A stretch of 64,000 nucleotides of DNA from Pseudanabaena yagii GIHE-NHR1 (GTDB taxonomy: Bacteria; Cyanobacteriota; Cyanobacteriia; Pseudanabaenales; Pseudanabaenaceae): contig NZ_JAAVJL010000001.1 in NCBI RefSeq assembly GCF_012863495.1, forward strand, positions 248,001-312,000, written 5' to 3'. The position numbers and the translations under genes are program-made. The notes beneath the pieces are model-generated. The model made no database searches. It saw only the letters and a program-made list of their open reading frames with translations, and was not told the DNA's origin. Below, in pieces: positions 8,666-10,228 of this stretch (position 1 is its first letter; each line of letters starts with the position of its first letter).

Positions 8666-8706
8666 GATTAAAAAAGCACTCATTTAATATGAGTGCTTTT
8701 TTAATC
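8666..8706. terminator. Bidirectional terminator between atpC and the sigma-factor gene
   Basis: An 18-bp stem (8666-8683 / 8689-8706) with GCACTCAT at its core and A/T runs at its foot. It serves both converging genes and overlaps the last codons of the minus-strand sigma gene. Confidence 0.85.
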
Positions 8707-9906
8707 TATGGGTGTAGCTAAGATTTTTTTGAGGGCAGTTATGCCTTTTTTGAGTTGTCGTGAAACTGTGACTGCGCTAATGCCTAAGGTTTCCGCAACT
8801 TCACGATGCGTAAATTCTTTTAAAAATACAAACTCTACGACTTCGCGGGTGCGATCTTCTAAGAGATCAAGAGCTTGCTGTAAACGAATACTATCTTCTT
8901 GGGCAAGTTGAAAGCTTTGATATTTATGATCGGTGACGAGATCGCCGATGGATGTTGAGCTATCTTCACTCTGATCGACTGGAGTATCCAGACTAATAGG
9001 AGAACGGTTTTGGCAGGCGAGTTTAATGTCGTACCACTCGCTGACGCTAATACCTAGCTCATCCGCAACTTCTTGGCTAGAAGGCTCACGACCAGTTTCG
9101 GTACGTTTGTTGCGAATGATCTTACAGCCTTGATTGTATGTAGTGAGCCAAGCACGCGGCATCCGTACCGTTGGACTCTTATCGCGTAAATAATGCTGAA
9201 TTTCCCCCTTAATATATGGCACGGCAAATGAACTAAAAGCGTTGCCTTTACTAACATCAAAACGCTCGATCGCATTGATCAGACCAATCGAACCAACCTG
9301 CATTAAGTCTTCAAAACTTTCTTGGCATTGATTTTTCCAGTGATAGGCTTCACGACGTACTAAGCCAATATTCAAATTGACAAGCTGATTGCGAAGTTTA
9401 GTTGTGGGATTCGCCCGATAGGCTTGCAAAATTTCGAGGGTTTCTTGTTTACGGTTAATCGTGGGCGTGATATCAACATCCTCCTCGTCCTGTGGTTCGT
9501 TGCGATTGTCTAGATGTTGTCTCTGCAAAAAATTCTCTAAGTGTTGATAGATCTGCGATCGCGCAAATTCCGAAAAATCAATATCTTTTTCAGGATTAAA
9601 TTGGACAAGCGCCTTTTTAAATCCCTGCTTTCCGATTTCGAGTAATTCGCGATCGCTTTCCCGACGTTCCGCAGTGCGACGATTAGATACACGACGGTCA
9701 GATGTAGCTGGTCGATTTGGCGATCGGCGATCGCCAATCCTTGTTTGATTAATTAAAGATACGGGCAAAGCAGCGATCGTTTCCCGAATTAAGCCCATAT
9801 AAATCTCGACAATCTGCTCCTGCAAGTTTTCCGATGGCGAAACTCGATAGGCTCTTAACAGAGGCAATATATTCTCATTAGTTGACGGATTTGAATCTAA
9901 TGGCAT
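8701..9906 (-). CDS. sigF: Group 3 sigma factor, SigF-like, with duplicated region 2
   Basis: An RNA polymerase sigma factor. The C-terminal part (about residues 155-400 from ATG 9906) matches SigF-type factors: ESFEDLMQVGSIGLINAIER (region 2), GEIQHYLRDKSPTVRMPRAW (regions 2-3), and a region 4 helix-turn-helix HREVAETLGISAVTVSRQL. The frame opens at 9975, but ATG 9906 (MPLDSNPSTNE), preceded by GAGGA, is the better start. The N-terminal 130 residues are a degenerate second copy of the same region 2 (LLRAYRVSPSENLQEQIV; LLEIGKQGFKKALVQFNPEK; DFSEFARSQIYQHLENFL), joined by an arginine-rich linker with repeated DRR/NRR/ERR. SigF controls pili and motility in Synechocystis. Assignment to SigF is by resemblance. 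Confidence 0.82.
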   Translation of the reverse strand: MPLDSNPSTNENILPLLRAYRVSPSENLQEQIVEIYMGLIRETIAALPVSLINQTRIGDRRSPNRPATSDRRVSNRRTAERRESDRELLEIGKQGFKKALVQFNPEKDIDFSEFARSQIYQHLENFLQRQHLDNRNEPQDEEDVDITPTINRKQETLEILQAYRANPTTKLRNQLVNLNIGLVRREAYHWKNQCQESFEDLMQVGSIGLINAIERFDVSKGNAFSSFAVPYIKGEIQHYLRDKSPTVRMPRAWLTTYNQGCKIIRNKRTETGREPSSQEVADELGISVSEWYDIKLACQNRSPISLDTPVDQSEDSSTSIGDLVTDHKYQSFQLAQEDSIRLQQALDLLEDRTREVVEFVFLKEFTHREVAETLGISAVTVSRQLKKGITALKKILATPID

Positions 9907-10228
9907 ACGGCAGACATCCTCAAAGATGTAAGCAGCTCGAAGATATGCCCAACACATAACATGAGAATTTTGCATACATGTGCTTGATACCGATAGTTGT
10001 CACTTGCACATAGACATGTAGAAAGGCTTTATTACCTTAGTTTTTGTCAACCCCAAATATCGGTTTAGTGTAAGACCACTTTAGGATATAAGCAATATAA
10101 AAACATGAATCTTATACAATCTACATTCTAATGCGCGGTTCCCTGCCCTAGATTATACAAGTATCGTTATCCTAAATCATTGCGAAATCTCAAAAGAGAA
10201 TTAAGATTACTTTTCTCTAAACATTCTC
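9907..10228. other. Spacer between sigma-factor gene and moeA
   Basis: About 320 nt, AT-rich, with no RNA gene or convincing small gene. It must hold the sigma-gene promoter. I see no long hairpin here, unlike most other spacers in the window. Confidence 0.5.

Follow-up and report, generated by a model that had tools for sequence, protein, structure and literature searches.

A degenerate second region 2 at the N-terminus of SigF in the Pseudanabaenaceae

The sigF locus, its architecture and its translation start

The window analysed here, 64,000 nucleotides of Pseudanabaena yagii GIHE-NHR1 (contig NZ_JAAVJL010000001.1, positions 248,001 to 312,000), carries on its minus strand at 8701–9906 the gene for an extended, 401-residue form of SigF, a cyanobacterial group 3 sigma factor, flanked by moeA and the convergent atpB–atpC genes in an order shared by most congeners. 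The frame is open over 8701–9975 (minus strand); its residues 174–421 match the SigF model (NCBIfam accession: NF005644) with 416 bits against a cut-off of 261, and Pfam regions 2, 3 and 4 are present in that order, bearing out the identity proposed in a preliminary description of this DNA. Group 2 and ECF sigma factor identities are ruled out by the scores. Regions 2, 3 and 4, the model score and tree placement are shared with canonical cyanobacterial SigF (Synechocystis Slr1564; NF005644); canonical SigF, however, comprises ∼260 residues with a single region 2, whereas the window protein is longer by ∼150 residues at its N-terminus, where a second, degenerate region 2 is found.

The first ∼130 residues of SigF constitute a degenerate copy of the protein's own regions 1.2–2.4 (the N-copy), for which a canonical-SigF HMM identifies two blocks on the minus strand: regions 1.2/2.1 at 9748–9879 (residues 10–53, numbered from 9906; canonical positions 10–43) and regions 2.2–2.4 at 9514–9654 (residues 85–131; canonical positions 51–98). 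The intervening residues 54–84 (9655–9747, minus strand) form an insert with 10 arginines and a net charge of +6, modelled by AF2 at low confidence. An arginine-rich linker had been described between the two halves of the protein, but the arginines interrupt the N-copy itself, separating its region 2.1 from its region 2.2, and the true linker to the functional sigma factor (9451–9513, minus strand) is acidic, with a net charge of −5. The functional regions 1.2–2.4 follow at 9178–9450 (Pfam Sigma70_r2, E=6e-17; no variation at 84% of sites across the genus), and regions 3 and 4 occupy 8704–9177 (Pfam Sigma70_r3 and r4), all on the same strand.

Comparison across the genus places the most likely start of translation at ATG 9906: this codon is present in 25/25 genus members, preceded in most congeners by GAGGA (9917–9921, 10 bases 5′ of the ATG); the frame back to the ATG at 9975 is absent in six congeners (L009, L010, L025, L026, L028 and L029); and the 69 bases between 9975 and 9906 have a pN/pS of 0.68, which, unlike that of the extension, is not protein-like. 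The end coordinate of 9906 in the preliminary description already implies this start. The segment 5′ of 9906 is probably a leader, the conserved DNA at 9907–10009 (minus strand; alignment of 18 congeners) being a likely promoter and 5′ leader. Conservation of this stretch in the genus is unusually high and includes GTGCAA (10004–10009) and, 12 bases on, GGTATC (9986–9991), an arrangement that resembles a SigB/SigF-type promoter and may reflect autoregulation; SigF has known roles in transcribing pilin genes and in autoregulation (PMC2758279; PMC6495340).

Initiation just ahead of the functional region 2 would leave the whole extension untranslated, and canonical SigF elsewhere does begin ∼8 residues before that point. 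This is nevertheless highly improbable: frames of 350–526 codons are open in 35 of the 36 family genomes with an extended SigF (324 in G059), most congeners lack an ATG near the core, and the extension is under purifying selection. Frame and selection indicate a translated extension rather than the start downstream of it that would have spoken against the preliminary description. A pseudogene reading of the extension is ruled out by the same intact, selected frame.

Homology and predicted fold of the N-terminal half

The proposal that SigF contains a second, degenerate region 2 is borne out by shuffled controls, HMMs and profile comparison. A recount of the two ungapped segment pairs originally aligned gives exactly the 12/36 and 12/44 identities claimed, and Smith–Waterman alignment of the N-half with the core scores 88, against a mean of 32 and a maximum of 59 over 2000 shuffles, ruling out chance similarity. 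The N-half of the window protein alone matches NF005644 (E=3e-9), as do 20/21 aligned N-halves (best 4e-16); the canonical-SigF HMM is matched by 25/25 congeneric N-halves at E<=1.1e-5, where the best of 1000 shuffles reached only 8.7 bits. Comparison of a profile of 21 N-copies with one of 16 canonical SigF sequences (hhalign) returns a probability of 99.4% and E=1e-21, with an alignment spanning regions 1.2–2.4 and broken solely by the arginine-rich insert.

Pfam region 2 (Pfam accession: PF04542) finds no match in the N-half of the window protein, for which Pfam and PADLOC scans returned nothing above chance, and matches the N-halves of 3/21 relatives (best 1.2e-6). That Pfam misses the N-copy in the window protein would explain its being overlooked: 4193 cyanobacterial sigma factors were classed by domain models in a 2024 survey, including families with duplicated domains such as A.5, and its main text, as far as consulted, makes no mention of a SigF with two regions 2 (PMC11119718). 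A literature search for duplicated or fused sigma domains returned nothing relevant.

Structure prediction agrees with the profiles. The AF2 model of the N-half alone has a mean pLDDT of 69 (71–86 in the helical blocks), with helices at 13–22, 26–35 and 37–46 (regions 1.2/2.1) and at 76–102 and 111–135 (regions 2.2–2.4). Sigma domain 2 ranks first in a Foldseek search with this model, and nearly all of the top 50 PDB matches are sigma factors; TMq reaches up to 0.55 and the E-values are weak (∼0.1), with probability and ranking consistent. The predicted fold is therefore that of sigma domain 2, and not the unrelated fold that would have spoken against the original proposal. The full-length model has usable helices, with pLDDT <50 at residues 133–149 (the linker), and shows no confident packing between domains (pTM 0.33), so that no interface in cis can be read from it; a fold search with this model matched through the functional sigma factor and was uninformative on the N-half.

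Decay, constraint and family-wide history

The N-copy has lost the residues through which a sigma factor works. RGEIQHYLRD, invariant in regions 2.3–2.4 of the core and known for promoter contact, is replaced in every aligned N-copy, as the preliminary description had anticipated for the window protein. The position equivalent by hand alignment to Q406 of E. coli sigma70, a contact to core polymerase, is E in Pseudanabaena and E, M, D or A across the N-copies, with Q only in L032/L033 (one genus). Structural positions (A99, F111, F114 and A115) and the hydrophobic core are retained, and the N-copies have newly conserved residues that are absent from the core (RSxIxQHLExFLQRxxLDxRN), whose conservation suggests a partner-binding or packing surface.

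Purifying selection acts on the N-copy: dN/dS within the genus is ∼0.13–0.15 (0.15–0.23 in regions 1.2/2.1, 0.08–0.12 in regions 2.2–2.4 and ∼0.2 in the arginine-rich insert), compared with 0.00–0.06 in the functional core (Nei–Gojobori, 18 pairs with pS <0.45; wider and narrower sets agree). With its contact motifs lost and dN/dS at ∼0.15, the N-copy is decayed as a sigma factor and constrained as a protein. Its ten arginines in 31 residues, under constraint of their own, could be taken to bind DNA in an N-copy still contacting RNA polymerase or DNA as a weak second sigma-2, but the insert is largely absent from other genera, the −10 motif is lost everywhere, and lysines occupy core-contact positions in the genus, making a residual sigma activity quite improbable. 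HIP1 palindromes (GCGATCGC) occur at 9555, 9649 and 9727 in the N-copy, one inside the insert and one at its edge; the window as a whole has 109. Growth of the insert through HIP1 repeats is possible.

Pseudanabaenaceae are thread-like cyanobacteria. Extended SigF is encoded in 36/38 genomes of the family, with a detectable N-copy in 34 of the 36; G016 (76% complete) and G060 (90%) gave no SigF match at the threshold. Among the matches listed in a 390-genome survey of the class, SigF of other families has stop-to-stop frames of 248–341 residues, which leave no room for a full second copy. Phylogeny of SigF orthologues, a check proposed at the outset, places the bearers of the extension in one clade (96*) within the SigF rows of the tree; in a tree of region 1.2–2 segments the N-copies also form one clade (100/94), on a very long branch, and the tree does not point to their source SigF. 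Both trees indicate that the extension arose in one event. Most family genomes carry, in addition, a SigF-like gene of normal length (L002:1411-2247, G000:C1:3498515-3499246; L136–L143, L150 and L151), several examples of which begin with a conserved REFS-x-x-DK tail ahead of region 1.2; this gene groups with extended SigF in the best tree (98*), and in an AU test its link to more distant paralogues of the class is not rejected (p 0.425).

Traces of region 3.2 persist behind the N-copy in two genera: residues 151–193 of L034 match canonical SigF positions 164–206 (KYQSFRLAAEDTKRLQ), and residues 105–137 of L037 match positions 178–210. These traces argue that sigF was likely duplicated in tandem and in frame, completely or for the most part, after which the first copy would have lost regions 3 and 4. 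By eye, a region 3.2 remnant is also possible between the two copies of L035 (SFQLSAQDRERL), perhaps twice.

Divergence between genera is strong: N-copies share 18–31% identity and differ by insertions and in length. Genus g6 (L036 and L152) has a proline- and acid-rich SigF extension of 74–100 residues in which no region 2 copy is detectable; the copy has apparently been lost or replaced, and since g6 retains SigF the N-copy is not indispensable. Such divergence and loss would suit a non-adaptive leftover, decayed but needed for folding or solubility, and the selection signal would also be expected of a domain kept merely through folding dependence. That reading is rather unlikely, as it must accommodate the low dN/dS within the genus, the retained hydrophobic core, the newly conserved motifs and the retention of the copy in all but two of the family's extended SigF proteins.

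A putative regulatory domain in cis

Homology, single origin, order of losses, open frame, selection, predicted fold and lost motif are well supported. From the position of the N-copy, its retained fold, its lost sigma contacts, the selection upon it and its new conserved residues, we infer a regulatory, inhibitory role in cis; the N-copy is probably a built-in regulatory part of SigF. Auto-inhibition and anti-sigma-binding mimicry had both been raised as possible roles in the preliminary description. In the account we favour, tentatively and at somewhat less than even odds, a tandem, in-frame duplication of sigF in the Pseudanabaenaceae ancestor would have been followed by decay of the first copy, which would have shed regions 3 and 4, its −10-reading residues and, in the majority of genera, the main residue gripping the polymerase clamp, with the sigma-2 fold retained under purifying selection. 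The N-copy would then pack on the functional sigma factor, or recruit a partner to it, and thereby limit or condition its access to RNA polymerase or the promoter, a pseudo-sigma-2 domain acting in cis after the model of region 1.1 of primary sigma factors.

Region 1.1 is likewise an N-terminal module ahead of region 2 and a possible model of cis-inhibition; the N-copy, which derives from region 2, is not known to be related to it in sequence. Regulatory use of a degenerate sigma domain has a counterpart in PhyR of Alphaproteobacteria, whose sigma-like domain binds NepR; PhyR, however, is a response regulator in its own right, built from a receiver domain and a sigma2–sigma4 pair, whereas the N-copy is fused to an active sigma factor and has neither a receiver domain nor region 4.

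The N-copy, as a degenerate sigma domain, might instead act as a decoy for an anti-sigma factor or as its docking site, binding a SigF inhibitor or permitting one to bind. RsbW/SpoIIAB-type kinases are abundant in these genomes, and the window's genome alone has 8 PF13581 matches; PF13581 does not discriminate, since none of the genomes searched was without a match. Region 3, reportedly the part of Bacillus stearothermophilus sigma-F bound to SpoIIAB in 1l0o, is missing from all N-copies, which makes a decoy of the RsbW type less likely. The N-copy lies in cis with an active sigma factor, the neighbours of sigF (atpB/atpC and moeA) include no anti-sigma gene, and no SigF anti-sigma factor was found in the literature searched, although partner switching does act on SigC of Synechocystis (PMC12329169). 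On balance, an anti-sigma decoy is unlikely.

Two further sigma factors invite comparison with the N-copy. Family A.5 of cyanobacteria (r1.2*r3*r2*r3*r4) also arose by internal domain duplication but is SigB-type, prevalent in Nostocales and repeats region 3 (PMC11119718). SsdA of Actinoplanes missouriensis is a sigma factor with an extra fused part, in a sigma/anti-sigma system, that part not being described as a second region 2 in the sections of the report drawn on here (PMC10733313).

This case suggests that sigma factors with two regions 2 can go unrecognised when classified through Pfam. In model cyanobacteria SigF directs the transcription of genes for pilin and motility, and little is known of how cyanobacterial group 3 sigma factors are restrained. 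It is possible, if doubtful, that a decayed region 2 in cis became a built-in inhibitor or sensor, the sigma factor counterpart of a pseudokinase, fixed across the family. A family-wide, selected pseudo-sigma-2 would make it possible to test cleanly whether duplication can supply a sigma factor with an inhibitor of its own, with the canonical SigF of other cyanobacteria and the copy-less SigF of g6 as natural controls.
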